A DNA stretch of 64,000 nucleotides from Pomacea canaliculata (lineage: Eukaryota > Mollusca > Gastropoda > Architaenioglossa > Ampullariidae), in contig NC_037602.1 of NCBI RefSeq assembly GCF_003073045.1, forward strand, positions 6,992,464-7,056,463, given 5' to 3'. Both the position numbers and the translations under genes were made by a program. Positions 33,301-64,000 of the stretch are shown one piece after another. The notes under the pieces are model-generated. The model searched no databases, had not been told where the DNA came from, and saw only the letters and a list, made by a program, of their open reading frames with translations. Numbering within the stretch: the stretch's first letter is position 1; every line of letters starts with the position of its first letter.

Positions 33301-35158
33301 ATGTTACTGTGCTAGTGCTGCTAGATAATCAGAGCCGCACGTAGATGGCAGTTATTGAAAGAACTATTCTTCTGATAACTACCATATATAAATATATGCT
33401 ATAGTTATTGATATTTAAATGTTCATGACAGATGACTTTACACAGAATAGCAATACAAAGGTAATAACTTTGCTCTGAATGCATTGAGTTGTGGGCTGCA
33501 AATGTTCTGCTATAAAAGGAAATGAAAGGATGTAAAGAGAAAACCCATAATAACGAAACATGAATAAGAAGCAGAAGAGAGCTGATGGTCTTTGTTATTA
33601 GTACATGTGGTACACAAATTTTAAGTTGTTATAAACATGTGTAGAAATGTGGATATGATTACGTGCTGAAATAATCAGATAACATCACCATTTCTAATAA
33701 GCCATTTTCCATCCTTATTATAGGAAATAGAGAATTTGTTTTTTGTAAAAGTTTATGCTTCTTTATGATTTTGTTTTAGTAATTAATCTCTCCTTTACAT
33801 TTAGACTGTGCTGTCATTGTATATTTTATATACAAAATGACCAGATACAATGATAAAATGTGACTACTGTTTGTCACTTGCCTGCATATACATATATCAA
33901 GCCCTGATAATTGCATTGTTTTGTGTTGCCAGAGCTTTATGGACGAAACAGTACAACATGTCTGATGGACACTCAAAGTTATGAAGTACTTCAGGAGTTG
34001 CAAAGTGACCGCCTGTCTTGTCTTACATTCCGTGATAACATCATTGTGGCTGGATCATTTTTGGCTGGCATGTGGGTGTGGCAGCTTGGTGGTTTTGTGA
34101 ATAAACAGGTACTCCAGGGCCACGCTGGAGCAACGATCTGTGCTGACATTCATCCCAGTAAATCCTTTGTTGTCACTGGGTCAGCTGACAAGACTGTCAT
34201 TCTGCACAACTTGGATGTTGGTGCTTCACACCATCTGCATGTAGGGCCCATAGAAAACCACGTGCGACATGTACACTTTCTGCCTCAAAACAGCACAGAA
34301 CAATTTAGAATTTGTGTGGGTGAACAATCTCGCATTGTTGTAGCTGTTGTGGACAAAAATGGGCATTGTCTGGCATATAGTCAGCACCTTGCATCAGGCG
34401 GGGGACGGTATTGTTCATTCTCTCATGCAAGTCATGATGAGAATCTTTTTTATGTGTCAGTCATGGAAGAGGCTGGTTTCTGTTCTGTAATCAGCTACCA
34501 TCTCAGTGAAACAGACTTTACTGAAGAAAAAGCAGTCATCACTGGGCTTAAAAGCTGTGCGCATGTCATAGGATGTGGTAGGAGGTTTCTAATGATTCTT
34601 TACACCATTCCTCTTGCAGAAACTGACAACAGCCACAATTTTCTCATCTTTGATCTCACCAAGAGCCAGATAATTGCACGGACATTTATTCCAATTAGAA
34701 GGTGAGTTATGTATTATTTGGGAAAGTTTGGATTGTGCAAATTAGAGTGTAATAAGATAAAAACGTGGAAGAGAAAGTTGAGAAATAATGTGAAAATGTT
34801 GAAGAAAAACCATAAAGTGGTGTGACTGTTATCTGACAAATGAGAAAGCAAATGCGATAAGCATCATTAATATTTACATTCTTACAGTTTGAGTAGTATA
34901 TTTCAGCCTTCTTGAACACATAATCAAAAAGTTCATTCCAGAGAGAATTTTTTGTTTAATTAACAAGGTGGTTTTTTTTTTCTTTCTTTCTTTTTCAACA
35001 GCAGTGAAAATGCATGGACTGTCAGTGTTGGAGACACTGACTGGCTTCATGGTCTCAGCTCAGACACTTTGTGTTCCAGAAAATTCTTGATTGTGTTTGT
35101 CTCTTATGATGGAGAACTTTGTTGTATGAGTTGGGATCAAACGCTGTGGAAGGCATAG
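30331..35158 (+). CDS. FBXW2: F-box/WD repeat-containing protein 2
   Basis: FBXW2 is a substrate-recognition subunit of an SCF (SKP1-CUL1-F-box) ubiquitin ligase. Exons: 30331-30344, 31488-31731, 32621-32858, 33933-34701, 35002-35158; total 1422 bp, 473 aa, phases consistent. The 14-base first coding exon (MAFKR) is chosen because it splices in frame to give MAFKRQSFDFQDWLN, matching the vertebrate start MERKDFETWL. The F-box lies at about residues 55-105 (FIDLDCLPFQKILHVLDVQS, then ARCRQVCKAWN). WD40 blades follow, with VLQGHAGATICADIHPSKSF and VVTGSADKTVILHNLD the clearest. The C-terminus NAWTVSVGDTDWLHGLSS and the ending SWDQTLWKA-stop match the family. A decayed second copy of the last exon lies at 49142-49315. 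Confidence 0.92.
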
Positions 35159-38694: not shown

Positions 38695-41600
38695 ATGAAG
38701 ACAAACGTAGTTTTCGTGCTGCTCTTAATACTGGAGACTGGTCAAGGTCAGAATCTGCTGGACAACCCCAGCTTCGAGGGAGATCTGACGGGTACATGGG
38801 ACAACAATGGGTTCCTGATGGAGCGCGTGAGTGGCGATTCGGTTGACGGAAACTTCGCACTAAAGGCCAGTTCCCGGTGAGGACATCTGCTGGGGATAAT
38901 CTGTTAGTTTATGTATCAGGACAAAAGCTAGGTACACTATTTTTGAATGTATTGTATTCAGCAATGCATATAATAACACAGGATATAATAAAGACCACAA
39001 CGATTAACAATAGTAAGATTACCATTTCGACATCTTGTTACAAATAAACACTTGTCGAGAAAGCGGTGACCATCATTAAGACATACTTCTCGTTCAGTGT
39101 CCTTTCACAAAATTCTTATCTAAATGAAAAATAACAAAACATAAATATAAAATTCAAGTAAAAACCCGTTTGCACAAGGCACATAGAGTCTTTACTGGAG
39201 GTTTGAAAATGATCGAAGTTACAGAAGGAAGAAACAATTCCTGTGATCAAGAAAAAACGATAGGAAAAGTACGGTGGATCTTATTGCATGACTACTAAAA
39301 CGTAAAGATTAAAAAGTCCCTAAAAGTAGCATACTGCATATCGTTAATATAAAACAAAGTGGCCATGTCAAAGAAACATTTCTGCTCAGTTAGAAGCGAG
39401 TTATTATGTTCTTTTATTTCTTTATTGGTGTGTTGTTGGCAATAAGTATGATAACCGACGTTCAAAGTCTTAAAAATCATGTCAATGACATCGGACGGAC
39501 AAACAAACAAGAAAAAACTAATTCCCAAAGAGAAATATTTCCAGTTCTAGAATAATTTAAATATGTAGGATTGCTGACAAAGTGAACTGGTCAGGAAAAG
39601 ACGAAAGAGCACTATACAGACACGAACTGCAGTCGCTCACTGAAGTACAACTGATGATTCCTTTCTTAGTGATCGAAGTCTTGAAGGACCACTGTACAGG
39701 TGATGCACGGCTTGAAGACCAGCGCTCGCTATGAATGATTGCTTATGTAAAGCTGCTCAACGATCTTCCCGGCACCCTTTGGCAGAATATCAGAGTCACT
39801 ATGCAGTACCAATTTGTCGATACGGGAAGTGGAACAGTTATACTAATCTAAAATCAAAGGAATTGCAAAATTTAGTTTATGTTGGTTACACAACGACAAC
39901 AAATAAGACAAAATTAGTCATAGTATGCGAGACAAGTACGTACATATGTCTATATGCATTTACATTAACATCAATAGTCGTACATTTTCTTCCGTTCTTG
40001 TAACAGGAGAGATAGGTTATTATGTGATTGGCAACCGAGGCCTGTGTAACTCCGACATGGGGTGGATTAAGATCAATGGCAGTATGAACGCGCCAGAAAG
40101 AGGTAAGCAGTGCCGTCATTATAGGGAATCTCGTCTTTTGCCTTATGGTAGTATTAAAACGCAGACAAAAAAATCACTAACACTTCTTCTACGGACCACT
40201 GCACATCACAGTTGGTCTTTCATTGAAGGATTCTATCCGGAGGAGAAAAGCTAGCAGTAAAAATAGTATTTTGCTACTAGAATTACGTTACTAAGAGTTT
40301 GAGTTTTTTGCAATCCAGATGAATTTCGAGTATTTTAAAGCGACTGATTTTTCTGATTGACCTTATCTGGGTTATACATCTTTGTCGATTTTCTGTGTCT
40401 CTGTTATAAATTACCCGCTAAGCTTTTATGGAATATTTATGTAGAGTAAGGACTAAGAAGGCATCGAAGACCTCTCAGTCCAGCCAGAAAATGACTTTAT
40501 TCTTCACAGTTTCGGAAAAAACTGTTTTTTTTATTGGAAGAAAGTTTTTTTCTTTCTTCAATTGATCCGGTCATTCTAAATTTACAAACAGCGTTCAGCT
40601 GGGTCCGGTTCTCGATACGAGGCCCTGATCCAGGGGTGAACTTTTTGGTGGACAACGCCGCTCTGTATGAAGTCCCTGAGAACACCAACTGGCTCGCTGA
40701 TTCCTACACTAACATCGACACATACAGGAAGTCTAATGTCAACATAAGGTAATGCATTTGTCAATATTAAGTAAATAATATCTTTTTCCTTCTGTCTACA
40801 CATTTTCTCGGTGTTGTTATTGGCGCTAATGTTGTTAATGGTAATATTTGTGTCTTTACAGTCCAAGTAAAAACTAGTCACGAACTGTGTAATCATATGT
40901 CTCTGCAATGTGCCCCTGTGTGTGTGTGTGCGGCCGTGCGTGAGTGCGTGTTTCTATTTCTGTATGTGCGTGTGTTTTCTTATTTTTCAGTTTCACTTTG
41001 CCGCCTGGCGTTTCCTCGTCGAAGTTTGATGTTCAGGTAATTTCTGTCAAATAAATGACAATATTTCTGGCTGTATAATCTTGTAGCAGAGCGCAAAGAT
41101 CTACACTTACTGATCTTAATAGCTGAAAGTGACGAACATTTGATGATGATTGATGATGATTTTGCAGATACGATTAAAAAAGCACCTGTACCCTTTCGGA
41201 GTAAGAGTAAAAGACACTCAAATGTCAACAAAAGCCTCTAATTTATACAGCCAACTGATCTTTAACATGTTCAACTGGGCCACAGTGCAGAGCTACAAGT
41301 GGATGTTTGACAAAGGAAACTTGGTAAATATATCAACTTACCTTTGCGATTTGGCTTCTCTTGAGAGTGAAAACTATCCTCCTAACCCTGAACGAAATTT
41401 CCTCAAAACTTGATAACGATGGCGCGTTCTCTGACTTGGACTTTCTTTCAAAGACTTTCATTATCTTTCATCAACTAAAAAAATTCTAACTCAAACTACC
41501 AAACGCATTTTTCTGGCATTGTGTGGTAAGTTTTTTGTAATACATGACAAATCCTTTTTAGGGGTGGGGGCTGGGACTAAACACGGGTGTGGTAATTTGT

Positions 41601-41838
41601 TGAAATAAAGAAATAAATGGAAAGAAATATTACAACACACACGTGTAGTCTGTTGGATATAAGGTGGAAATATGCTGTGCTGGAATTAAGGTCAAACAGG
41701 TAGACTTTTCTGGGGTCTTCTTTTGCAGACAAATCCAGACTTCCATAATGCAGTCAACGCCACCAACGTCCTCGTCGCAAGCGGGTGAGTGTCATCATCA
41801 TCCGTCATCATAATCAATCATCATCATCATCATCTATT

Positions 41839-41881
<43 letters not shown>

Positions 41882-44800
41882 TGTAGATTGAAAGTTCGCG
41901 GACACAATATCTTATGGGACGTGGCTGACAACATACCGGATGCGGTTAAGGCGCTGAGTGGACAGGAACTGAGAGACCAATTGGACAAACACGTGCAGTA
42001 CATGTGTAATCTTGGTCTTGGCAAGTAAGTGCATCTACTCTCTCTTTCCCTTCTCACCGTCGTAAGAGGTCTACACTAGTTCCTCAGCTAAGCCTCAGGT
42101 CACCTGTGGATTCAACCACAGACCTGAGTCGATTCGATCAAGGAGTGCAGTTCCTCTTCAGTAGAATTACACTTCTGTTGCTCGTTGTATGTAAACAAAA
42201 CTATATTTTTTCATACAGTTTAGTCCTGTGATATACGTAGATTGCCTACCACTGTTATTTAATGCTTTCGAAGTAATACTGCGCATGGATATCTGTGTAG
42301 GAGCAACAAATATGGCTTGTTAAAAGCGACTACGAATATAAAACTAAACAACACATAGCTGGCGTGAGTCTGAGTAAAACAAAGGCCATCATGCAGCGTG
42401 TCGTGCACGTCTTAACAAAGTCCTATGAATATTAAGCTTAATTAATGCTAAAAATAATTAAATTGATTTACAAAAAATATTTTTTTCAAAGTAATTCTTC
42501 CCCCCCCTCCCACACACACACGCATACACACATGAAAAAAATATATAAAACAAGATATAAAAAAGAGGAAGTTTTACGTGCACTGGTCAACCAAAAATGA
42601 TAAAGGAGACTGCATCAAAACGCACTCGCTTCGTGGCCTCATTATTATAGGGATGACGTGGCTGAAACGACTATAGGCAGTTATCAAATCTTGACGTGGT
42701 CGAATTAAAAGAAAGTTCGAATTGACCGGCACCCGAGCCTTTCTTTATGTCTATTTCTGTCTGTCAGACTGGCCCACTGGGACGTCATGAACGAGATGAC
42801 CCATGGTCTATACTATGAGGAGAAGTTACAGGACCGGAACTTCACCAAAAACCTTTACCGACAAATGAAGACCTGTGACAATGTCACGAAGTTGATCTTG
42901 AACGACTACCAGGCTGTTGACATCGCAGCGTCAGCAGAGGTAAGAGCCAGAACTGAGAAATCTTAAGTCTTCTTTACAAAGAAAGACGTGGTCATACATA
43001 AACTATCTCTGACTGCTGAGGGCCTATTTCAAGATTGGATTTTTCCGAGGTTATTTTTCTTCCCGTTTGCATATGCCATCCGTTCCAGGGAGTTCCTTGT
43101 AGTCATCACTATCGACTGGAGCTCTGTCGACATCCAAGTTCTAAATCTCATTGCATTCAGAGGACACCTCAATAAATTTCAGTTAATAGCTACCTTCGTG
43201 GTAACCTTACTTCCTTATTAACTCTTAGTGTTTACAACTCTACAATCTGTGCACCAGTTCACACAGCGATGTTCTTAAAATTAGAGGTAACATTCAGACT
43301 TCGTCTATTACTGACATAATGGGCAATTTTCATTGACAATGCTGCGACTCTTTCATAAGAGTATGTGTCTTCTGTATCCGTACTTCTCGACTTATACACG
43401 TATAACTAAATGTAAAATAGAGATAGTATAACAACATTGGTAGAAAACATAAACAAATAAAGAAAAATGTTTATATTTCGTGCTTTTATGCTTCCAGGAG
43501 TACTTCCAGTTGATGTCAGAGTACCTCAGTGAAAACGTTCCCGTGGAAGGCTTAGGGGTGGAGGGTCACGTTCAACAATATCTTGCCGTTGACCCCACGC
43601 TGATTCTGGTACTTTTACAACCACGCTCATAATTCGTGTTATGAATAGTGCTTTATTAACTTGTGTAGCCATCTGCCTTTATCTTTTGTCACAAAGCTCT
43701 ATACTCTAACTATACTACGGAAAGTGCGATGAAGCTAGCAACAAGTGTTGTTTGTGAGGTACTTTTTTCTTCAAAATAAACCACTGTTATCAAATAACAG
43801 GCTGTTAGGCACAAGTGGAAATTACAGCAATGGGCATCAAGCGAATTACACGAGTGACTATTATAAAAAGGAAACAGGTTACGATTTGTAATATACCAGT
43901 GTAGGCTTTAAAATTGCACGCAAATATATTGTGCAGTTTAGTGAATAATGAACAGAAATTAATAAAAGCATCCAAAGCACATTGCCTTTTTGTTTGTATG
44001 TCATGCCTAGAAATGTATACGTTTTTATTTAATCTGAGAGATGGGGAGGTCAGTAGTCGTACTGTAGGTCGGACTTCACAACTGCAGTAAAAGTTATTTA
44101 ACTACAAATATTTCCTTTTATTGGCGGGGTATAAATGTTCTCTATATATTTCAACGAATACCTTGCAAGTTGCACAGAGAAAAATGATTTTATGCGGCTA
44201 TGTCTGAAAAATATTAGGCAGATAGTTTTCTTAAGTTTACTGTTTGCTGTTAAATAAATTGTTTCAGAGAACACTCGACCGTTTGTCAATGTTAGGAGGA
44301 ATAGATGTCTTTATGACCGAGTTTGACGTCGAGTCTCCGGACCCCGTGCAGCGCGCTGATTGGATAGAGGACGCCATGCGAGCACTGTTCAGTCATCCTG
44401 CCATGAAGGGCATCATCTACTGGAGTTTCTGGGACCAGGACACGGACAATGTTAACAGAGTGCTCATTCAGGGGACCAATGTGACGGTACGATTCCTGTT
44501 GTCTGCCTACTGTTTTACAGAAGGTGACGTTACTATAATACAAAACTAGATGTAGGTGTTGACTATGAAGAGCCAGTCTAGACCAAAGGTTTTGAAGTTA
44601 TGCTATATCAACAATACATAGCTTCTTATGTCTAAGAAATTCTGTGATGTCGTAAGATTATTACTGTAGACGAATTATTTATTTGTTAGATCATAGAGCC
44701 TGGGCAGCGATTCTTCTGTCTGATAAAAAAAGAATGGACAACGAATTTGAGTAGCAACCTCGGCAGCAGCTCAAATATCTCCGCCCGTGGTTTCCGAGGC

Positions 44801-47800
44801 GACTACCAGGTGACCATCAAAAGGTCAGGCGTGCCGGTACAGGTGGAATTCTTCACTTTGGGATCAAGCGACATGTCCTTGAATATCAAAATTACAAACA
44901 AAACAAGTATGGTTGTTTTTTTTTTTTTTTGGTTTTTTTTTATCAGCCGAACAGTTTCTTATTTATCTGTTACAAAAGTAACCATTTTTTAATTTAACAT
45001 ATAACCATAATAAAAGAGGCCTGAGTTGACAAAACAATTGTCTATTCTACTGAGAATTAAGAACTCATTAAATTGAAATGGCGTCAGTTTTTTTCTGAGG
45101 GCTAATAAAAATTCATTTAGCCTATTAATTAGTAAATGGAACGATCTTATCTTAACTCAATGTGCTGTAAAGTCTGATAACATCTCAGAGTAAGATTCAT
45201 ACAAATCAAATGATATATTCATCCAAACAATTTTATTAAAATGAGTTTGTTATTGACTTCAGCCAATGAAACATTGTAAAGAACCTGGAACTGTATCTTT
45301 TCTATGCTTTTCACTTAGAAAGTATACAGTGGAAGATTAATCTATGTATTTAAGTAATTGTTTCCAAGGTATTGTTTGTATCTCTAGCTTTTATATCTAT
45401 GTACTATTTATTTGTATAAATATAGGTACTATTTACTATTTTTATATTTATGTACTATGTACTATTGTGTAACGTTGTATTATCATTGTTGTTGGCTCCC
45501 CTTCTATGGGACAAGGGCGCTTGAATAAACACCCACTCATTCCACACAGCTGCAGTAAGTGTGCCGGTGGACAAGGACTACGTACCCAAGTGTGTCAGCC
45601 ATCGTGACCAGAAGTCTCTGGGGCTGCAGTCCACGTCATCAACAAACATGCAGCTCACCTGCGTCAACGTCGAGTCCACTCCCTCTGGTGGCAACGAAGA
45701 TGACGTGGCATCGGTCACCTGTGGAACGGATCGCATCATGGCAGGCTGCACGAGCTACCAGAATGTGAGCCTTTCAGCGTCTGTCGTTTACCAAAAGGAA
45801 GCCTTCCAATTTGTCTCAAGACGACTACACTTCTTTTTTAACAGAGAACACAAATGTGTCTTGCTTACCGCTTACTCTAAATAAATGTAAAATATGCCTT
45901 TTGTCGGGAGTTTTATGTTCTCGTATCTTCAAAATGTAATCTGCTATTAAGTGTAATGAATGTAGAATTGATTAATAAATCAGGCTTAGAGAACCAAATT
46001 GTTACTTACATTTTAGATATTGTTCTACGCATGTGTCTGTTCCTCATTGAAGGCCATGCTTTGGACGAGGAAAGGAGAACAGATTGTCTTGGAGAACGGA
46101 GTAGCCGTGTGCAAAGCGTACAACGGTCAAAACTCACCGGCAGGTAATTAATTAAAACATAAATCGCACGAATTTTCTTATTTCCAAAACTGAATTGTGT
46201 GAACATGTAATCAAAATATATTTGAAAATGTCGACATCTTTAGGCATTAGTCTACGATCCAATAATATTTCACGTGTCCAAAATATTGAATCTATGTGTT
46301 TGCTTAGAGTTTTTCTTGCAAAGAAGAACCTTTTGTTTATCCTATTTATCATTTTCATGGTAAAAAAATTGTGCCTTTCTGTTATGCATATTTACAAGCG
46401 AGCGAGTATATTTATATGAGGAAATTCTCTCAAAGTAAAACACGCGATTGCGTCGAAACAACAAGTAAAAGCTTTTGGAAATCTCTCTTTTTTTTTCTTT
46501 TTTTTTTTAAGCAACGGAGTATAGCAATTATGGCAATAAGAATTATGAAAATGATTTTGCATTATATTGATTTCACTGAAGCAAATAATTGTAAATGACA
46601 TATTTGTAAGTAATCGAAATATTATTTACAGTTTCAAGAGATTAAAGCTGCTTTGGGCATAAGCGCTTTTCTGTTTTAGCAATGGTTAAGATGACGTAGA
46701 AGGTCTCACGGTTATGATTATGTAAAATACAAAGTCTACCCGACAATATTCTTTACATCTATTTGTTTTGTACTTAGGCGTGACTGCAGCTGCACGGTGC
46801 TGCAAGGTGTCTGGCATGAGTTGTGAGTTCCGGTCGGCAGGACCATCTTTGACTTTTGGCGGCGCGCAGGCCGAGGCCATTTGCTCTACAAATACCCTGC
46901 TTATAGGTAAAACACAATGTGATTTGCTTCTCTTTCCTATCTTGCGTTCTGAAGCTCTAGTCACGTGTTCTCGTTACGCTCTCGTGCAGTTTAGTCCTCA
47001 AACGCTTTAAATCAAGGTCCACTATACCTCCTTATGTTAGACTGAAACATCTAGCCTTGTAGATCTCTAGAGTTAATAAGCACTCAGCTATAACTGATTA
47101 TAGTGACTGATGCTAAATGTGTAATCCATTTTTTCGCGACTATTTCATTTGGTCTTTAACAAATGTTCAACTTTTGCAAATTTTCCATATGCAGGTTGTT
47201 CCAGTTACAGCCAGTTCCCGGATATGAATGGGGCATATGCTAACGACACAGCGAACAGTTGCGTGGCTGAGGGTGGCAATCCTGCATCTACAGATCCTGC
47301 TGAACGTTCAGGTCGGTCTGTTTGTGTCAGTATGTAAAGGAATTAAAGTGTTCATTTCTAGGTCTTGTGTCGGCTATCAATTGCTACTGACATTTGATGG
47401 TGTATAAAATCAATACTTTAGTGTAGGTTTACATTTTTAATAACATAAGTATTATTGTGTTTGCGTTCTTTTACTTTTTACGTTTTTTTTAAAATTTTAT
47501 TTATTTGATTTTATTTATAGCAGGATCCGCTGATTACGCAGCGTGATGGCATTTGTTTCTGTTTAAATCAATATTATCAGTTTGGTTTTAAAATTTTAAA
47601 TATCATTAGTATTGATATTAGAATGTAACATTATTTTATTTTTCATTTTTATTTATTGCTTCATCGCAGGATCCGTTGCTTACGCAACGTGCTGCTCGTA
47701 TCCGGACATCTCGTGCAGGCGCGTGTCCTCACTTCCGACAACTCTTGGAGCTGGTGATTACCAAGGAGTGACGTGCCCTTACAACACCACCATGGTATCG

Positions 47801-48278
47801 TGTAGCTACTTTGCTCCAGACGGCAGGTCTGGAGGAGCCAGAATCATTGGTAAGTTTGTCATTCCGTATCGTTATATATGACTTCACTTTGGTAATATTT
47901 TATTGACTGTTTAAAAAAAACTTGTTTATTGAAACTTTAAGCAAATTAAGCCGTCTCTCAGGATCAAATAAAGGAAAATTCACATTCTCATCTGAAAACA
48001 TGGTCATACAGTTAAACAATTAATTATTGTTGGTGAGAAGTAATTAATCTGCATCGATAGCTATATTAGTTGTTAAGTTATTCCCTAGTTACTTATTAAA
48101 GCATTTACATTTGTAATTTGTGATCTATGAGAGGATCTGTGTGATTGTTCATCTGCAGTCGAATTATACGGTTTGAATTTCAGACTCTAATGGCGGCGAC
48201 GAATGCAGAGCGTACATGGGAGACAACTTGTCTTCAGGGTCACGTGGTGTGACAGCTACGGCAACATGTTGTATGTAA
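38695..48278 (+). CDS. GH10 glycosidase with PCSK9-like C-terminal domain, copy A (damaged in its CBM)
   Basis: Coding exons: 38695-38876, about 39670-39828, 40007-40102, 40592-40748, 40991-41036, 41168-41323, 41729-41784, 41887-42024, 42768-42939, 43498-43608, 44268-44486, 44690-44906, 45550-45764, 46053-46143, 46778-46906, 47195-47311, 47670-47849, 48184-48278. The product starts with signal peptide MKTNVVFVLLLILETGQG and QNLLDNPSFEGDLTGTW, a CBM4/9-type start. The catalytic acid/base is in AHWDVMNEMTHG, the nucleophile in VFMTEFDVE. The C-terminal 275 residues are Cys-rich and PCSK9-like. Against copy B, the exon at 39670 has a two-base gain and a one-base loss, reads into a stop, and has lost its consensus donor. 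Every other exon keeps frame and splice sites. It is therefore either a young pseudogene, a gene using another start, or misassembled in that exon. Skipping the exon would not keep frame. Confidence 0.8.
41829..41881. repeat. (GTT)n microsatellite in GH10 gene A
   Basis: About 17 near-perfect GTT units lie directly before the acceptor of the exon at 41887, after an ATC-rich run. Copy B has a shorter, different simple-sequence run at the same place (about 56302-56325). Confidence 0.9.
47515..47550 (+). repeat. Duplicated acceptor and start of the next exon
   Basis: CAGGATCCGCTGATTACGCA and the following GCGTG repeat the acceptor and first 25 bases of the exon at 47670 (CAGGATCCGTTGCTTACGCA), about 150 bp upstream. 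The copy has diverged and soon meets a stop, so it is unlikely to be a working exon. Copy B lacks it. Confidence 0.65.
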
Positions 48279-49745: not shown

Positions 49746-50640
49746 TTGAAAGTAGAGAATTAGCGGCGCATTTATACAGACATTTTTACAATGTGGCCTA
49801 ACACAGGGTCAGAGCAAATAATTTATTCGTAGAGGAAGAAATAAATGAAAATACGCACCACAGTTGTCTCAAGTGCCAGTCAGCTGGGTTGTCAAGTAGA
49901 TTCCGACCTTCCTCCGTCTCCAGCATCATCACTTGAACAAAAATACCATTGTCTTTCTGTTAGTTATAAGACGATTCTACAAAAGAAGATCCCAGTGCTA
50001 ACATACATGAACGGTTCTTACGCGCAAACTCGTTTTCTTTTCGTTCAGATCGACTTTCTCTTATCGCGTGAATAAGGTTTAAAGAGCTGCGAATGTGTTT
50101 CAAAATGGTGTTCCCCTCATGTACCAAACATCCTTAATACTCGCTTTCTGAAAGTGTTGTAATATTTGAATGTACGGCTTCGTGACTGGACCTCGATTTA
50201 TTGTCAAGGCAGTTTCTAAAAGGTTTTATCACAAAAGTAATCAAATATCTGAAGATTTCTAAAACAGACCTGCAGGTGACTGATGAGTGACATATAACTA
50301 GAAAACTAGTTTCGCAGCAATGGAATGTACTGCCTTAACTTAGCAGCCGACAGGAAAATACGCACAATGGAGTTTTTGACTCAGCTCCAGTCGTCCCAAG
50401 TTGACGGAAAGAAGGAAGGAGACGGAGGTATTCGTTTTATAGGCATGTTTCGATACGCCAAATTGCAAATTTATTGACAACACGTGCTGTCACAACAATA
50501 TTCTTCTGGAAATTGTACGTTGTCTCAAAATGACAAATTCCAGATGTAACACATTTACACCAACTAATTGAATAATATTTCATTGTTGCGCAGAACGCTT
50601 ATCTTGAATATTGGCCGACCGTGCGTCCTTGGGAAAGTTA
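49746..50640. other. Spacer between GH10 copies, no gene seen
   Basis: Open frames such as 49845-50075 carry no recognisable content. Confidence 0.35.
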
Positions 50641-52639: not shown

Positions 52640-55600
52640 ATGAAGACAATTGTAGTTTTCGTGCTGCTCATAATGCTGGAGACGGGTCTAGGTCAGAATT
52701 TGCTGGACAACCCCAGCTTCGAGGGAGATCTGACGGGCACGTGGGAGAACAATGGGTTCCTGATGGAGCGAGTGAGTGTCGACAAGGTGGACGGTAACTT
52801 CGCACTCAAGGCCAGTTACCGGTGAGGTCTACTGTGACAACACGCCTACCAATGCTTTTCCCCCTGTTTCCTCTCTGGCAGCATTTCGCGTTTCTTTATA
52901 ACGACTCCGCAGACGTTAAAACGTGTAGTAAGTAACATTGCTAGAGAGATTTTGTTTTTCATGTTTTAGCGATCGAAGTCTCGAAGGACCACTTCAGGTG
53001 CTGTACGGCTTGAAGACCGGCGCTCGCTATGAACTAAGCGTTTTCGTCAAGGTGCTTAACGATCTTTCCGGCACCCTTTGGCAGAATATCAAAGTCACTA
53101 TGCAGTACGAGTTTGTCAATCCAAGTAAGTCTTGCAACTTTAAGCTCAAAGAAAAGGCAAAACTTAAGTTAAGGTTGTTTATACAATGATAATAAATGAC
53201 GAAATCTGTTACTGCTCTGGATACACAAATGCTTGCATATGTGTACATGAAAATCTCTAATTGTAAATTTTCTTCCGCTCATGTAACAGCTGAGATCGGT
53301 TATTATGTCATCGCCAACCGAGGCCTCTGTAACACTTCCATGGGGTGGATTAAGATCAATGGCAGTATGAACGCGCCAGAAAGAGGTAAGCAGTGCCGTC
53401 ATAGGGAATCTCGTCTTTTGCCTTATGTAGTATTAAAACGCAGATTAGGTAGATAGAAGTCTGGACTTTTGCAGTTCATATAAAACGGAGTATTTAAAAG
53501 CGATTGATTTTTATGATCGTCTGTATGTGGGTAATAAATCTTTGTCGACTCTCTTTAAATTACCCGCTAAACTTTTATGGATTATGTAGTGTAAGAAGGC
53601 ATCAAGGACCACGTAGTCCAGACGAGAAATTGATCTGATATTTTTTTTTTAGATTTTCAGAAAAAAATTCTCTCAGTTTGTACTTAATGCTTTTCTTTCT
53701 TCGATTTATTCGGTCATTCTAAATTTACAAACAGCGTTCAACTGGGCCCGGCTTGCGATACGAGGTCCTGATCCAGGGGTGGACTTTTTGGTGGACAACG
53801 CCGCTCTGTATGAAGTCCCTGAGAACACCAACTGGCTCGCTGATTCCTACACTAACATCGACACATACAGGAAGTCCAACGTTAATATTAAGTAAGTAAA
53901 ATGTTTTTTGTCCTATTTACATGCTGTCTCGCTCTTGTTAAAGACAGTAATCGTGTCTTTACAGTCGAAGTAGGAAATGGTCATGAAACAAGTAAACTTA
54001 AAAAAAAAAAATTGTAATCACTTGTTTATGCAGTGTGCGTCACTGTGTATCCGCGCGCGCGTGTGCGTTTACCTAATTTTGTATGTGCTTGTGTTTTCAT
54101 ATTTTTTCAGTTTCACTCTGCCGTCTGGCGTGTCCTCTTCTCAGTTTGATGTTCAGGTAATTTCCACCAAACAAATGACAATATTTCTGGCTGTACAATT
54201 TGTGAACAGCTTGTAGCAGAGCGCAATATTTGCACTAACTGATCTTAATGGCTGAAAGTAACAAGAATGTGATGATAATGATGATGATTGATGATTGATG
54301 ATGATGATTTTGCAGATACGATTAAAAAAGCACCTGTACCCTTTCGGAGTAAAAGTAAAAGACACGCAAATGTCAACAAAGGCCTCTAATTTATACAGCC
54401 AACTGATCTTCAACATGTTCAACTGGGCCACAGTGCAGAGCTACAAGTGGAAGTTCGATAAAGGAAACTTGGTAAATATATCAATTAAACTTTGCGTTTT
54501 GGCTTCTCTTAAGAGTTCAAATTATCCCCCTGTTGTTGAAATTGCATTCAAGCAGCGACCTCCGTCCTCCTGTCGTTATGGTGTATCAACAAAAATGTTT
54601 GCTATGGCCTCTTCTACGGCTTTCCTTTGTCTCGTCAGATGATAGGCGTTGGCCAAAGGTAACTGAGCTCGTGAGTGACAGTGGAAGTAACTTTGACCAC
54701 GCACGTTAACACATTACTGCAGGGGAACGTTATGCATAATTCTTACGCGTATGTCAATTACATAATACACACAGATCACGAGCCCGATCTTTTCTTTTCT
54801 CTGATCAAAAGACTTGCGAATCAAGAAACAACATTTCTTAAAACGTCAAGTCATTTTAAGTCTTAGTCTCGAAGAAAAAATTCTTTTCATTAGAAATGGT
54901 AACTTTTTGTAATATATGGCAAATCATTTTTAGGGGTGGGGGCTGGGACTAAACACAGGTGGGGTAATTTGTTGAAATAAAGAAGTAAATGGAAAAAAAT
55001 ATTGCAATTGACAAGTGTAGTCTAATGTGTAATGGAGATAACCGGGAAATTAGGGTGTAATAGGTGGACTTTACTGAGGTCTTCTTTTGCAGACAAATCC
55101 AGACTTCAGTAATGCAGTAAATGCCGCCAACGTCCTCGTCTCAAGCGGGTGAGCATCATCATTATCATTTAGTTATTGTCCTGATCAAAATAAACTTACT
55201 AAAGAGTAAGAGAATAAGCACAAAATTAGTACCTTATTTTTTAATTGTACTCCCACACTTTTCAATGTGTAATGTAGTGCTACTTTATTAATATAATGCT
55301 ATAACAGAACACAATACAACACAATACACTACAACTTTATTGGTCCATTAGGGCAATTACAGGTAGTGCTCATATGCTAGCAATACACAGATAAATACAT
55401 TTGTACACATGTGCACATTTACTACAGTAAATAAGTTGTTTCTTTCACACACGCACACACACAGAGAGAAGATTCAGTTGGTGGCTTTAGGTCACACCAG
55501 GCTAACACAAGATCACGGCAAGTTGAAGATTTCAAGCGAATGGCACGTGAAATGAATGAGTTGTGGATGCGATTCTTTGTGCATACAGGCATTGATTACC

Positions 55601-58600
55601 TGCAGCTAGACCACAAGAGTTAGAATTCACATGCAAACACATGATCAGAAACAGAGGATGCGTAATGCCTTCCTGAGGTTTTGCTGATGACAAAAGGCTG
55701 CCAAGTCCCTCTACCTGTTTCCGGTGATCTTGAAACAGATATTAACAAGAAAGACAAGACTTTCCGTCACCTAGGGAGAGTCTGTGGAACAAAGAGATGA
55801 AAGAAAAAGTGATGAGACATACAAAGAAGGACTGACAAAACCGAGTGAGAATGACAGTTGACAGAGAAAGTTCGCGCTTGAGCTACAGGCGATGATGGGT
55901 CTTACGGAGGATTATGTCAGTTTTGACGTTCCATTTAAGATGGTTATCGAAGATAGCCCTTAAATATTTGTGATTCTTTGAGGCATTCAGGACAAGGAAA
56001 TGTTCGTCATAGCAGCGTACAATTTCAGGAAGAGCACCACCATGAGTATGTTTATTCTTATTAAAAATATGACAGCAAGGCAATGTCATCAGCAACTGGT
56101 CTGAAGTTATTGAGTTGACTGGGCCTAGTGGTGTTTGAGACAGAATTGACTGAAGGTATATTTGTTAGTCTAGAACCGATGACTGCTTAAATTGTCTATA
56201 TTTGTGTGTATGTTGTCATCGTGACCATTATTTTTGTTGTTGTCAATTTTGTTGCTGCTCTTGTCATTGTTAGTATTGTTGATAATATAATTGTCTTCCT
56301 AATCATCATCATCATTATTATTGCTTTTTGTAGATTGAAAGTTCGCGGACACAATATCATATGGGACGTGGCTGACAACATACCGGATGCGGTTAAGGCG
56401 CTGAGTGGACAGGAACTTAGAGACGAGGTGGACAAACACGTGCAGTACATGTGTAATCTTGGTCTTGGCAAGTAAGTGCATCTACTCTCTCTTTCCCTTC
56501 TCATCGTCGTAAGAGGTCTACACTAGCTCCTCAGATAAGCCTCAGGTCGCCTGTCGATTCAACCACAGACCTGTGTCGATTCGATCACGGAGTACAGTGC
56601 CTCTTTAGCAGAATAACACTTCTGTTATTCGTTGTATGTAAACAAAACTACATTTTCAATACAGTTTAGTCCTGTGATATACGTAGATTACCTACCATTG
56701 TTAATAAATGCTTTTCGAAGTAATGTTGCGCAAAGATACATGAGTAGGAGCTAGAAAATATGTTTATTGTTTAGTTTAATTTACACTGTAGCAGAGCAGT
56801 CGGAAAGGCAGAGCCGTACCGCTCATAGCAACAAATATGGCTTATTAAAAGCGACTACGAATATAAAACTAAACAGCACATAGCTGGTGTGAGTCTGAGT
56901 ATAACAAAGGCCATCATGCAGAGTGCCCTGTGAATATTAAGCTCAATTAGAAAGGATGCTAACATTTAATATATTGATTTACAAAAAATATTTTATCAAA
57001 GTAGTTCCCCCCCCACACACACACAGAGAGACACGATTAAAAAAAGGGGGAAGCTTTGCGTGCACTGGTCAACCAAAAGTTATGAAGAAGACTGGATCAA
57101 AATGTACCCGCTTCGTGGCCTTATTATCACATGGATGATGACGTGGCTGAAACGACTATAGGCAGTGATCGAATCTTGACGTGGTCGAATCGAAAAAGTT
57201 CGAACTGACTGGCCCCCAAGCCTTTCTTTATGTCTATTTCTGTCTGTCAGACTGGCCCACTGGGACGTCATGAACGAGATGACCCATGGTCTATACTATG
57301 AGGAGAAGTTAGAGGATCGGAACTTCACCAAAAATCTTTTCCGACAAATGAAGACCTGTGACAATGTCACGAAGCTGTTCTTTAACGACTACCAGGCTGT
57401 TGACATCGGAGGGTCTACAGAGGTAAGAGCCAGAGAAATCTTAAGAATCTTCTGTACAAAGACGGACGCCGTCATAAGATCGAGGTCAGCTCATTACTTA
57501 CTGTTACGAACATTTTTTTAGTTTGACTTGTTTCCGAGGTTAATTTACATCCGGTTCGCTATACCATCACCTCCAGGGAGCTCTCTCTAACCATCACAAT
57601 GTACTGAAAGTAAGATATCGAGGTCTGCCGACCTGCGGGGTCTAAATCTCCAGCATTCAGAGGAAACCTCGATACTTTCGATCAATAATTACCTCCGTGG
57701 CAACCTTACTTCATGATTACTTTTCCTTTGTAGTATCTCACCGACCTCATCAGTATGCAGTATTTTGATGACGTCCAAGTGTAGATACACAAAAACAGGG
57801 AGCTTAAGTTTGATGTAGCATAACTAAATATAACTCGGTACCGTTAGAAAGAGATAAATAGAACTAGAAATGAGTGTTTATTTCCTGCTTTTATGTTTCC
57901 AGGAGTACTACCAGATGATGTTAGAGTACCTCAATGAAAACGTCCCCGTGGAAGGTTTGGGAGTACAGGGTCACTTTCAAGAATATCTTGCCGTTGATCC
58001 CACGTTGATCCTGGTACTTTTACAATCACGCTGATAATTCTATTGCAGTCTGTTTTAACCTTTGTCACAAATTTCTATACTCTAACGATACGGCGGAAAA
58101 TGTGATAAATCTGGGAACAGGTGTCGTTTGTCGAAGTTCCTTATGAGTAAACAGTTGTTACAGAATACCAGGCTGCTAGGCACCAGGCGAAATTACATTC
58201 AATTGATAAGAGCTGATTACATGAGCGAATGTTGTCCAAGAGAAACATGTTATGGTTTGTATCTAGAATTGTAATTTAAGTAGACGAATTAAAGACAATT
58301 ATCGGATGTTTTAATAAATAATGAGCATAAATTAGTTTTAAAATCCGCAGAAGGAACTCGCCTTTACGTTATATGTCATTTGTACCCTACCCGCAAGTTA
58401 AACTGTGAGTGAAAATTGCACCCCTGTAGACTTGTAACCAGTGTCTGTATAGATAAATTTATTGAAGTAATGTGCAGTGGTTCTCACTTTTTTTTCTTTT
58501 CTTTTATATTAGCACTACGCAGTTTCCTGTTTAAAGGGTTGGGGAACGTCGCACAACGTTTCTGAATGTCTTTTCATATATACACTCACATCAATCATAC

Positions 58601-61600
58601 TGGGATAAATTGCGTAAACAGAGTAGCTTTGCAAATCAGAGTTAGTTTTTACAAACAGTTCAGAGAGAGAGGTCGCGGACATTCGCACTCTTGCGCACTT
58701 TGCTGTTCACTTTAATCTTTCCGTCTAAGTTATCTAACTACAAGATTTTAATTTGTATTGGTAATAATTCAAATATCTTCAATTGCTATTAAGTTAACAT
58801 TTCATTAAGTAACCTTGATTGCAATTCAGCTGTTGCCATTTCGGTGTCTCAGCATGATTGTTTTATATATTTCGTCAAAATGTATTGATAGTTTCACAAA
58901 AATACGTTTGTTCGGCGCATATTAGGCAGTTGAGTTCTAAAGTTTATGGCTTGCTGTTGTATAAATTGTATTTCAGAAAAGAGTCGACCGTTTGGCAACG
59001 TTAGGGATAGATGTCGTTATGACCGAGTTTGACGTCCAGTCGCCGGACCACGTGCAGCGCGCTGATTGGATAGAAGACGCCATGCGTGCAATGTTCAGTC
59101 ATCCTGCCATGAAGGGCATCGTCTACTGGAGTTTCTGGGACCAGGACACGCAAAATGTTAACAGAGAGCTTATTCAGGGAACCAACGTGACGGTACGATT
59201 CCTGTTGTCTGTGTTCTGTCTCAATAAACAATACTACACATTGGTTTTCATTAGACATAGCCAATCTAGAGTTAAGCTTTTCAAGGATCATGCTACACAT
59301 GCTTACCAACAATGCTTAGTTTCATCTTATTCTATATAAATATATGTATTTCTTCTGTATATGTAGCTATAGGATTTCATTTAGAGTATTAATTTACGTG
59401 TATCATTAATCGGTGTAGATTATAGAGCCTGGACAGCGGTTCTTTTGTCTGATAAAAAAAGAATGGACAACAAATTTGACTAGAAACCTTGGCAGCGACT
59501 TAAACGTCTTCTTCCGTGGGTTTCGAGGCGACTACCAAGTGATTATCAAAAGGTCAGGAGTACCGATACAGGTGGAATCATTCAGCTTGGGATCAAGCGA
59601 TATGACCGTCAACATAAAAGTTGCCAACAAAACAAGTAGGTGTTTTTTCAATTAGTAAAATAACTCCAGTTGACTTTACAGAAATGAACCATGTGATTAT
59701 TATCAATGAAAAAATAGGTTTTGATTCTCATGAAGTTCAATATATCGTCAAATTAAGGTGACATAAAGAATTTTTCTTCTTTGGCAAACCTTTTGTCACT
59801 TAGCTTAATAATTAGCAACTAGAACGGTCTTGTCCTCACTCACTCACTCAGCGGCAGCAAACGTGCCGGAAGACAAGGACTATGTACCCAGGTGTGTCAG
59901 CCATCGCGGCCAGAAGCCTCTGGGGCTGCAGTCCACGTCATCAACAAACATGCAGCTCACCTGCGTCAACGTCGAGTCCACTCCCTCTGGTGGCAACGAA
60001 GATGACGTGGCATCGGTCACCTGCGGAACGGACCGCGTCATGACAGGCTGCACGAGCTACCAGAACGTGAGCATTTCAGCGTTTATCTCTTACCAGGCGA
60101 CAGCCATGCATTTGATTGCCTCATGGTTTAAACAGCAGATCATCACCCACAAAGAAAATAGCAATGATTATTAAGTTACAAACAAATTGTTTGTACGTGT
60201 GAAGTCCAAATCTAGTCGCCCTTTCATCTCGTTAAAACGAAGTGCACACATTTTAATGACATTGATGGCTTCTAGGTCTTGAATCTATGGGTGTCAGACC
60301 TTTATAAAAACAGTTCATACAGTCTTTTTTGACTTAACACCTGTGCACATGACGACAAAACGACGAAACATGCAAATGATCTAACATTCTCGGTTAGAAA
60401 GACACATATCTGGAGCAAGTCTTTTAGAGATTGTTCTACGTCTGTCTTGTCCTCATCGCAGGCCATGCTTTGGACGAGGAAAGGAGAGCAGGTTACCATT
60501 GAGAACGGAGTGGCCGTGTGCAAAGCGTACAACGGTCGAAACTCGTCAGCAGGTAATTAATTAAAACATAAGTCAAACGCTTTTCTCACTCCAAAAAACT
60601 AAGTTGTGTGAGCATATATTGAAAACATATTTTGAAATAAAGTAATTTTAAGGAACTGGTGTATGATCCAGTAATATTTCATAAGAATATATTGGATTTT
60701 CTGGGCTTTTTATATTTTACTTTAAAGAAAAATCTATTTTATTTAAAACAATTTGCCCCACCTTAAAAGACCAAAAATGCCTTATCGTTACATATATTCA
60801 CACACACGAGTGGTCCATATCGTTACCTAGCCACAACCAGTCGCGACCTTGGGAAGTAAGTGATAGACGGGACCACTCAAGAATAATAATTGCACATCAC
60901 ACCTCTCTTTCTCTGTCTCCCTCTAGCCCCCCAGGTCGTAAAACTGCATGTGGTCGAAGGAGAAGAAAAAAACCACTACGTCGGGTGTCCGGTTCTAATA
61001 AAAAATATTAACACCTGGCACAATAAACACGAGGCTACACTGCCCTGTACCATTTACGTACAAATAAAGGTTCCGCTAAAGTTTGTTATTTTTATGTCTT
61101 GAGTGGACCTATGATTGTACAAAAAGGTTTGCCACAGACCAGTCCGTGCCTCAGTGTGTGTGTGTTTTTTTTTTTCATTTATTCTCCCATACATTCTATC
61201 CACACCTGCAGTCCGTAAGTCGCAATGGGGTTAAAATAATAAAAAAAAGAGAGGCACGGACTGGTCCGTGACACGGTTAGTATTCGTCCACTTCTCTCCG
61301 TGCTGGCTGATCTCTTGAGGAGATAATGAGTAGCGTGAATGTTCACTGGCCTCTGCCTCGAGACACACTGGCACCGAATGACCACAATACGGAAATAGCG
61401 GCGTTCCTTGACCTCACACCCTTTTTGGTTTCCCTCTACCAGTGTCCACTCGTCCGTTTGGCTGCACGCTTGAAGTAAGAAGTATTCTATAGAGTGTAAA
61501 TGCGACGCATTGAAGACAACCTTTTTAATTAAGACGTCAGTCTGATAATATGTTTTACATCTGTTTGTGTTTAGGCGTAACTGCAGCTGCACGGTGTTGC

Positions 61601-62982
61601 AAGGTGTCAGGCTTGAGTTGTGAGTTCCGGGTGGCAGGACCATCCTTGACCTTTGGCGGCGCTCAGGCCGAGGCCCTCTGTTCTACAAATACCCTGCTTA
61701 TAGGTAAAACACAGTGTCTTGCATTTGTAAAGCTCTAGTCACATGTTCTCGTTACATTCTGCATGCATACTGGTCTGAAATGTTGTAAGACAAGGTGCAC
61801 TAAATTTCCTTGTGTTAGAGACACAAGCTTATCTTGTAGACTTCTACAGTTACTAAGCGCTCAACTATTACTGATTCAAGTGACTGGTGCTGAATTTATT
61901 ATCCATATTTTTATAGCTTCTTTATTGATTCTTTAACAATTATTCAACTTGCTAACTTTTCAAATATAGGTTGCTCCAGTTACAGTAAGTACCCCGATAT
62001 GAATGGGGCATATGCCAACGACACAGCGAACAGTTGCGTGGCTGAGGGTGGCAACCCCGTATCTACAAATCCTGCTGAACGTTCAGGTTGGCTGATTTGT
62101 GTCATTATATAAATACAGTGTTCATTACTCAGTCATATGTGGGCTGTAGATTACTACTGACAGTTGTTGCTGTATAAAATCAATGTTCGTATATTTCAGT
62201 GTCTGAATTGTTAATAGCATTAGTATTACTGTGTAAGTTTAATTTTTGGCGCATTTAAACTTTTAATTTTTGTTTATTTTTACAGGATCCGTTGCTTACT
62301 CAGCATGCTGTTCGTGTCCGGACATGTCGTGCACGCACGTGTCATCACTTCCGACAACTCTTGGTGCAGGTGATTACCAAGGAGTGACCTGCCCTTTCAA
62401 TACTTCCATGGTCTCGTGCAATTACTTTGCTCCGAATGGCAGGTCAGGCGGAGCCAGGATCGTTGGTAAGTTTCAAAACTCGTAAACCAAAAGGTAATGG
62501 TGACTGGAGATGTTTAAAATTACGGAACAGTACTTTTCCCTGGATGTAAAGGCCAGTATTTGGCGAGCTGATCATGGGTAATTTTGCAATTAAGTACACT
62601 ATTTTCAACGTGGATTATTGAATATTTAAATTAAAGTTTTTACTGGGGTTTTAACTTGATCTTTCCTGAAGATAGTGTAGATTTATATACATCTCACTAT
62701 AGTTTATCACACTGTTACAAATTATCAATTTTATAGTATAAAAGTATATAGTATAAGCAGTTAATTTCCAGGGATAGCTGTAATCATTCTTCCATAATTT
62801 ATTAGTTATTTCAAGAACATTTATATTTGAAAAAGTTTATAGCATGGAAGAATCGGATTGTTCATCTACTTTTACTGTTTAATTCAGAGACCAATGGCGT
62901 CGAGGAATGCAGAGCATACATGGGAGACAACTTATCTGCAGGGTCACGAGGCGTCATAGCGACGGCAACGTGTTGTATGTAA
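52640..62982 (+). CDS. Secreted GH10 endoglucanase/xylanase-like enzyme with PCSK9-like C-terminal domain, copy B
   Basis: Coding exons: 52640-52821, 52970-53124, 53290-53385, 53735-53891, 54111-54156, 54316-54471, 55093-55148, 56334-56471, 57251-57422, 57903-58013, 58977-59192, 59419-59635, 59852-60066, 60462-60552, 61575-61703, 61970-62086, 62286-62465, 62888-62982; 2529 bp, 842 aa, all phases consistent. Residues 1-18 are a signal peptide (MKTIVVFVLLIMLETGLG). About 19-195 is a CBM4/9-type carbohydrate-binding region. About 200-495 is a GH10 barrel: RGHNIIWD, acid/base Glu338 in AHWDVMNEMTHG, nucleophile Glu440 in VVMTEFDVQ, YWSFWDQD. About 496-567 is a beta-rich extension. Residues 568-842 hold about 20 Cys in three modules with LxGCSSY, CxAxxG and ASCC/RCC patterns, as in the PCSK9 V domain. 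Predicted role: extracellular hydrolysis of beta-1,4-glucan or xylan, perhaps in the gut. The C-terminal domain's partner is unknown. Confidence 0.9.
55300..56150 (-). mobile_element. LINE 3' end inserted in an intron of GH10 gene B
   Basis: The minus strand carries reverse-transcriptase-like text (EIVRCYDEHFLVLNASKNHK and YLRAIFDNHLKWNVKTDIIL, matching the usual WCDDNFLxLNxSKTK ... YLGxxxDxxLKW). It then runs through broken sequence to an end with CCTAATGGACCAATAAAGTT and a (TGTATTG)-like simple tail, as in CR1/L2-like LINEs. Gene A lacks it at this intron, so it inserted after the duplication. Confidence 0.7.
60808..60878. repeat. Small inverted repeat in GH10 gene B intron
   Basis: GAGTGGTCC (60808-60816) and GGACCACTC (60870-60878) are exact reverse complements around 53 bases. 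CTTGAGTGG near 61098 may be a third related end. It may be a MITE edge; the limits are uncertain. Confidence 0.35.
61133..61270. mobile_element. 138-bp MITE with 20-bp inverted ends
   Basis: CACAGACCAGTCCGTGCCTC (61133-61152) and, reversed, CACGGACCAGTCCGTGCCTC (61251-61270) differ at one base. The inside is noncoding with a T run. It lies in the intron before the exon at 61575 and is absent from gene A. Confidence 0.75.
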
Positions 62983-64000
62983 AGCCAGTACGGACTTAAC
63001 CTACGTCGCGATCACATTACGATAAAACAGTCGCGGAATTGCCTTCTGACAGTCGTAATAAAATCAATGAGCACTTAAAAATAGCTCCTTGTTCTCCTTT
63101 TTTTAAAAACATGTTCTTTCAACACGTTAAACTCATGCAAGCTTTACTCTTTGACAGACTCTTTCCTAATGCCGTGAGTTCAATTTATAAAGCATTAAAA
63201 TGAACTTATATAACGCACATTCCGGCCCTATGAACAAGCTCATGACGCTTTACACAAAAAACGCACACACACGCGTGAGCGCGCACTTATACATACACAC
63301 TGATGCACGCAATACAACAAGCAAAATTGTTGTCTAAAGAATGTTATATGGGATGAAAGATATGGAGTCAGAAGTTGGCTCCATTGAGATGCATAATCAT
63401 GAAACATAGGACAAAGCCCACTGCATTGACTGCGATCTAAGAAAGAGTATTGGTTACACTAAAGGTAATCTCAAAGATTTTTAACTCTGCACATGAAAAC
63501 ACGTGAAAAATATAACCAAAACCTCGTAGAAAAAAATATTGTCACGGCCCGGTGTTGTCATCGAGTATAATTCTGACTTAGCAATTACCTAATTCTGACA
63601 ACTCTTGGTGTTCATAATTATCAAGAAATAACCCGCTTTTCCTCTGCTTTTATGGTGTCGTGAGGAAACTTTACTCCAGACGGCAGGCCATCAGAATCCA
63701 GATCCACTGAAATGCAGATAGTGTCATGTTTACTTCGCCGGAATATCAATGAATGGAGATACTGAACACAAGGGAGAGTAATGACAAGACATTATTTTGA
63801 ACAACAGTGCTAGATTAGCTCCCTTTATTCGAGAGAGAGCATTGAGGACTCCACAATACTCTTTTCGGTGCTTGAAAAAAATTATTAAGGTTTTAGTATT
63901 TTTTTACCAGACTTCTCAATGAAAATACAAAGTTAACGTTTTTCAAGTCGTACGTACTGTTTTAAAATTAACACCAGCTTTATGAACAACTGTGAATCTA
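62983..64000. other. Downstream flank of GH10 gene B
   Basis: AATAAA near 63056-63061, about 75 bases after the stop codon, is the likely polyadenylation signal. Homology to the gene A flank fades at about 63170. A CA-rich run lies near 63270-63310. Apart from the exon remnant near 63600 no gene is seen. Confidence 0.5.
63590..63700 (+). pseudogene. Decayed copy of a PCSK9-like-domain exon
   Basis: TTCTGACAACTCTTGGTG, then ATTATCAAGAAATAACCCGC, ATGGTGTCGTG and ACTTTACTCCAGACGGCAGG follow in order the exon at 47670-47849 / 62286-62465 (TTCCGACAACTCTTGG, ATTACCAAGGAGTGACGTGC, ATGGTATCGTG, CTTTGCTCCAGACGGCAGG). It has stops and no splice sites. It is the only trace here of a third copy of the GH10 gene. 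Confidence 0.78.

Follow-up and report, generated by a model that had tools for sequence, protein, structure and literature searches.

To our knowledge, the origin of the V domain of PCSK9 is unclear, and the domain is usually treated only within PCSK9 itself. It comprises three subdomains with three disulfides apiece (available portion of PMC3820617), and the accessible text of PMC9816786 describes it as a binder of proteins, i.e., of CAP1 through modules 1 and 3 and of annexin A2 and MHC-I through module 2, while assigning the contact with the low-density lipoprotein (LDL) receptor mainly to the catalytic domain of PCSK9. Glycoside hydrolases of family 10 (GH10) are known from gastropods: EGXA of Ampullaria crossean and the GHF10 genes of Pomacea canaliculata, animal GH10 of the herbivore digestive gland, resemble the gene described below, and family 10 cellulase/xylanase transcripts are counted among the digestive genes of the apple snail hepatopancreas (PMC5322654, as far as its text was available). 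The GH10 family is also expanded in apple snails (PMC13336756, available part). Here, we describe a gene in which these two subjects meet. In a stretch of 64,000 nucleotides of the Pomacea canaliculata genome (contig NC_037602.1; hereafter the window), a GH10 enzyme with an N-terminal CBM_4_9 domain continues in one frame into a cysteine-rich tail, for which profile comparisons support an assignment to the PCSK9 V type. The gene (copy 2) has a tandem paralogue (copy 1) that carries the same fusion.

Enzyme and domain are each known, and it is their pairing that was not met within the searched literature: a search at the level of titles and the starts of abstracts, with most subscription papers outside its scope, found no description of GH10 joined to a PCSK9 V-type tail, and a sequence database may already contain this architecture without any paper on it. 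The fusion takes a drug-relevant domain, the V domain of PCSK9, outside that protein and offers a route to testing its binding partners, as a natural V-domain glycosidase is a test object from which the domain can be removed, or on which it can be assayed, with neither a protease nor the LDL receptor present. The fusion might further illustrate the way in which animals redirect wall-degrading enzymes of bacterial type; the consequence for digestion biology is more modest.

The GH10 core and the cysteine-rich tail

Rebuilt from the DNA, copy 2 has 18 exons, all 17 introns of which are GT-AG (17/17), and its exons join into a single frame of 842 residues plus a stop (Table 1), just as the original prediction, made from the letters of the sequence, had proposed. 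In a Pfam scan of the whole protein, CBM_4_9, GH10 and PCSK9_C1 all exceeded their curated cut-offs. The predicted GH10 region matched Glyco_hydro_10 with an E of 6.2e-33 (114.8 bits vs. a cut-off of 22.1), and the predicted CBM4/9-type region matched CBM_4_9 at residues 20–156 (E 4.3e-8, 34.1 bits vs. 25.9). Against the Protein Data Bank (PDB), residues 19–566 had the beta-xylanase 7d88_A as top match (E 7.5e-51), with an alignment that runs past the GH10 barrel into exon 12, to about residue 558; 7d88_A thus shares a C-terminal extension with the copy 2 protein. The two catalytic glutamates that had been read from the sequence were recovered in this alignment as E338 (in HWDVMNEM) and E440 (in MTEFD), each facing a Glu of 7d88_A that is Ala in 7d89_A. 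We take E338 to be the acid/base and E440 the nucleophile. Since both residues match, the GH10 enzyme looks active.

When prokaryote genomes were searched with the GH10 part, 44 loci (L001–L044) were recovered at 24–32% identity, and 18 of these, picked partly for their long flanks, were scanned with Pfam. CBM_4_9 lies N-terminal to GH10 in 16 of the 18, which identifies the CBM_4_9-GH10 core, as judged by domain matches, as a bacterial-type arrangement. The bacterial relatives differ from the snail gene in having continuous reading frames and no match to the V module, a profile of which found nothing at E ≤ 1 in the reading frames of at least 60 residues of 47 bacterial loci. Two relatives have C-terminal parts of their own kind. 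A gammaproteobacterial CBM_4_9-GH10 protein (L011:2999–6427) ends in 447 residues with 14 Cys and no Pfam match, which are not V-like by the module profile. MAM domains are unusual for bacteria, and a planctomycete CBM_4_9-GH10 protein (L025:3437–6124) carries one at its C-terminus (E 1.7e-14).

C-terminal to residue 567, the copy 2 protein contains 20 Cys, 18 of which fall in register into three consecutive modules of six. This is the tail of roughly 20 Cys in three repeats that had been foreseen, and the motifs LIGCSSY, VCKAYNG, AARCC and TATCC, then cited for its likeness to PCSK9, are present in the translation. The cysteines of modules 1, 2 and 3 are spaced 20-9-25-18-1, 20-9-21-24-1 and 20-9-23-21-1, and those of PCSK9 module 1, counted by hand from the PDB profile alignment, 20-9-23-17-1. 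PCSK9 (Pfam PCSK9_C1 and PCSK9_C3; PDB 2p4e and 7anq) is alike in its three six-Cys modules of the form C-x19-C-x8-C...C...CC. It is unlike in that the snail tail is joined to GH10, that no peptidase family was found on the 842-residue protein (Pfam, E ≤ 1), and that the tail is not Cys/His-rich in the manner of the PCSK9 V domain, with 2 His in 276 residues.

Profile searches agree with this resemblance. PCSK9_C1 matched residues 599–680 in the whole-protein scan (62.3 bits vs. a cut-off of 31.3) and reached 67.5 bits (E 1.2e-18) when the tail was scanned alone. Scanned singly, modules 1 and 3 matched PCSK9_C1 above the curated cut-off in copy 2 (E 5.1e-12 and 3.3e-8) as well as in copy 1 (E 4.2e-12 and 3.3e-9). 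Module 2 matched PCSK9_C3, whose cut-off is 26.7 bits; copy 2 stayed under this value (E 1.6e-4, 22.3 bits), copy 1 equalled it as printed (E 6.6e-6, 26.7 bits), and PCSK9_C2 matched none of the six modules of both copies at E ≤ 10. The expected match to the PCSK9 C-terminal families thus held above the cut-off for modules 1 and 3 and more weakly for module 2, and the one-per-module succession of C1, C2 and C3 seen in PCSK9 is absent, modules 1 and 3 both being of the C1 type. A profile of the six modules, compared with all PDB chains at E ≤ 10, retrieved 18 distinct sequences, 17 of them PCSK9 (best E 1.9e-11) and one unrelated (E 0.48). Chance spacing of cysteines was dropped as an explanation, because three of three shuffles of the tail with Cys held fixed, as well as the reversed tail, matched no PCSK9 family in Pfam at E ≤ 1; one shuffle matched the unrelated Cys_rich_VLP (E 0.15). 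Taken together, sequence comparison supports the identification of the tail as a PCSK9 V-type domain.

Several other matches were set aside. A capsid protein (E 0.24), the sole PDB match of the single tail sequence, was taken as chance, as were crAss_PVA (E 0.011 and 0.032) and DUF2967 (E 0.0039), which matched single modules below their cut-offs; two partial matches in NCBIfam lay far under theirs. Peptide-pattern searches for the tail gave 35 prokaryote and 108 viral stretches with no relative by tblastn, a test that detects close relatives only. PCSK9_C1 matched 3 of 10 at E ≤ 0.1 in prokaryote genomes, none above the cut-off, with 3 of 14 among controls; at E ≤ 1e-4 it matched no genome in either of two bacterial phyla (0/392 and 0/398), where the controls were silent too, so that absence is not proved.

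The tandem copy and selection on the fusion

A second copy of the gene, absent from the original prediction, was found in tandem when the protein was compared with the window by tblastn. Its exon lengths, with borders set by hand, equal those of copy 2 except in exon 2 (one additional base) and exon 11 (one additional codon). Copy 1 has a frameshift in exon 2 and has lost the donor of that exon, and is therefore probably one of three things: a pseudogene of recent date, a product of faulty assembly, or a gene that uses a different exon 2. The matching 18-exon fusion in both copies indicates that the fusion predates the tandem duplication.

Over 789 codons, exon 2 excluded, the two copies share 86.7% protein identity, with a ratio of nonsynonymous to synonymous substitution rates (dN/dS) of 0.234. 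The tail (residues 569–842) is 86.5% identical with a dN/dS of 0.223, compared with 0.281 for the GH10 part (residues 200–495), 0.188 for the exon 12 segment and 0.677 for the 18 codons of the signal-peptide stretch. Nonsynonymous changes are depleted in the tail (Fisher, p 2.5e-11) and in the GH10 part (p 7.2e-7), and all 18 module cysteines (18/18) are kept together with C582, C762 being Tyr in copy 1. The tail is thus under purifying selection, with a constraint as strong as that on the enzyme. At the DNA level the fusion is genuine, and selection has maintained it. The exon layout and frame common to the tandem copy and the similar constraint on both parts support the view that GH10 and tail belong to one gene.

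Possible roles of the tail

By analogy, and with moderate confidence, we propose that the protein is a secreted animal hemicellulase, most likely a digestive xylanase or glucanase, whose tail would serve as a multivalent attachment module. A bacterial-type CBM_4_9-GH10 core would have acquired a disulfide-locked, three-module animal domain, placed at the C-terminal position that some bacterial relatives use for a dockerin, CBM_3 or MAM. Through the tail, the enzyme would stay bound to food particles, to mucus, to the surface of the gut or to partner proteins, and the tail itself might also withstand gut proteases. Among the 18 scanned relatives, GH10 is followed by a dockerin in four, by CBM_3 in three and by MAM in one (8/18), all of them modules with attachment roles. 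The tail appears to occupy a place where bacteria often carry such a module, which makes a captured binding module plausible. A wider reading is more tentative: rather than having arisen in PCSK9, the V domain could be an ancient animal module for extracellular attachment, portable between proteins, that here replaces a dockerin or carbohydrate-binding module (CBM) and that PCSK9 gained separately. If so, the ligands of a digestive enzyme would reveal what the V domain did before it came to control the LDL receptor.

Several observations weigh against the attachment proposal. Nine of the 18 scanned relatives have, at E ≤ 1e-3, no known module C-terminal to GH10, their weak matches there being confined to the segment beside the barrel, and in one a second catalytic domain, GH62, follows GH10, so the C-terminal place is not always one for attachment. 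The conservation evidence comes from a single genome with two copies of the gene, of which one is broken, and no conserved ligand-binding surface was identified on the tail. Finally, PCSK9 was missed when phmmer compared the tail alone with the PDB, and it took the six-module profile to recover it, so the kinship of tail and PCSK9 is a distant one.

Two equal rivals, each of which we consider rather unlikely, give the tail a different task. It could chiefly bind glycans, as a new carbohydrate-binding family whose three units grip plant or algal polysaccharide with avidity. Three-unit CBM13 is present on some GH10 xylanases, CBM_3 occurs at the same C-terminal place in the relatives counted above, and an aromatic residue stands three places past the third Cys in three of three modules (TSY, SSY and NYF); however, the tail has one Trp and no CBM family match at E ≤ 1, and proteins are the ligands described for the domain in PCSK9 (PMC9816786, accessible text).

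The tail could equally be chiefly protective, a cross-linked cap that aids folding, export and resistance to gut proteases and has no specific ligand, as might be expected of 18 conserved module cysteines that by analogy with PCSK9 would form nine disulfides (PMC3820617, available portion). Conservation between the copies nevertheless extends to residues other than Cys (the identity and dN/dS of the tail given above), which suggests more than a cap. Moreover, stability in the absence of a tail of this kind is common among GH10 enzymes.

Far less probable is a role like that of the V domain in PCSK9, i.e., endocytic sorting of a receptor or of the enzyme itself. The tail is homologous to the PCSK9 domain, but with neither a PCSK9-like protease on the protein nor a His-rich tail a PCSK9-like function is unsupported, and the LDL receptor is in any case bound mainly by the PCSK9 catalytic domain (PMC9816786, accessible text). 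In its interpretation, the original prediction is supported on the identity of the domain and on a single gene, for which the tandem copy and the similar constraint speak, whereas the receptor role it had entertained finds no backing. The weakest reading, that a GH10 gene (exons 1–12) and an adjoining gene for a Cys-rich protein (exons 13–18) were wrongly joined, gains from a stop soon past the exon 12 donor in read-through of copy 2, by which a short form is possible, but was dropped as highly improbable given the layout shared with the tandem copy, where junction, phase and frame are identical, the similar constraint on GH10 and tail, the start of exon 13, which by eye has no hydrophobic signal-like stretch, and intron 12 of copy 2 (59636–59851), which has neither AATAAA nor ATTAAA.

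Feature coordinates and neighbouring genes

Besides the two copies, the window contains fragments of the gene, which are listed with the other features in Table 1. A further short duplicate, of the flank of exon 13, lies at 45113–45159 and resembles the partial duplicate inside intron 16 of copy 1.

Table 1. Positions in the window of the two gene copies, their parts and derived fragments
Feature	Position	Strand	Basis
Gene copy 1, paralogue in tandem with copy 2, 18 exons; frameshift and lost donor in exon 2	38695..48278	+	tblastn
Partial duplicate of intron 16/exon 17 border, inside copy 1 intron 16	47488..47548	+	blastn 80.3%, E 2e-7
Inverted remnant of exon 1 and upstream part, third truncated copy	49882..50018	-	blastn 74.8%, 139 columns, E 2.3e-19
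Gene copy 2, CBM_4_9-GH10-(PCSK9 V-type), 842 residues	52640..62982	+	GT-AG frame, Pfam
Putative signal peptide, residues ~1–19	52640..52696	+	translation inspected by eye
CBM_4_9, residues 20–156, exons 1–4	52697..53769	+	Pfam
GH10 catalytic domain, residues 220–481, exons 6–11	54337..59150	+	Pfam; PDB match 7d88_A
E338 codon, putative GH10 acid/base Glu, HWDVMNEM	57276..57278	+	PDB alignment
E440 codon, putative GH10 nucleophile Glu, MTEFD	59025..59027	+	PDB alignment
Exon 12, GH10-associated C-terminal segment, residues 496–567	59419..59635	+	7d88_A alignment
Exons 13–18, PCSK9 V-type Cys-rich tail, residues 568–842	59852..62982	+	Pfam, PDB profile, shuffles
V module 1, residues 599–680	59944..61606	+	PCSK9_C1
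V module 2, residues 681–762	61607..62317	+	PCSK9_C3 below cut-off
V module 3, residues 763–842	62318..62979	+	PCSK9_C1
AATAAA, possible polyadenylation signal of copy 2	63057..63062	+	short motif, occurs widely thereabouts
Decayed extra exon 17, 3' of copy 2, in-frame stop	63593..63690	+	blastn 69.4%, E 2.4e-6

Other genes of the window lie upstream of the tandem pair. An exon of a GRIM-19 family gene is found on the reverse strand at 16834–17109 (Pfam E 2.9e-19), and exons of a gene of the NCU-G1 family (lysosomal) lie on the forward strand at 23320–25832 (Pfam E down to 4e-17). Taken by themselves, the introns, neighbours such as this NCU-G1 gene and the PCSK9-type domain point to an animal, perhaps a gastropod, as the source of the window. 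On the forward strand, 31441–34705 encodes a WD40-like protein, in which WD40 families match at 33914–34702, all below their cut-offs; its part at 31441–32917 reads by eye as an F-box with no Pfam match, and the product is perhaps an F-box/WD protein.

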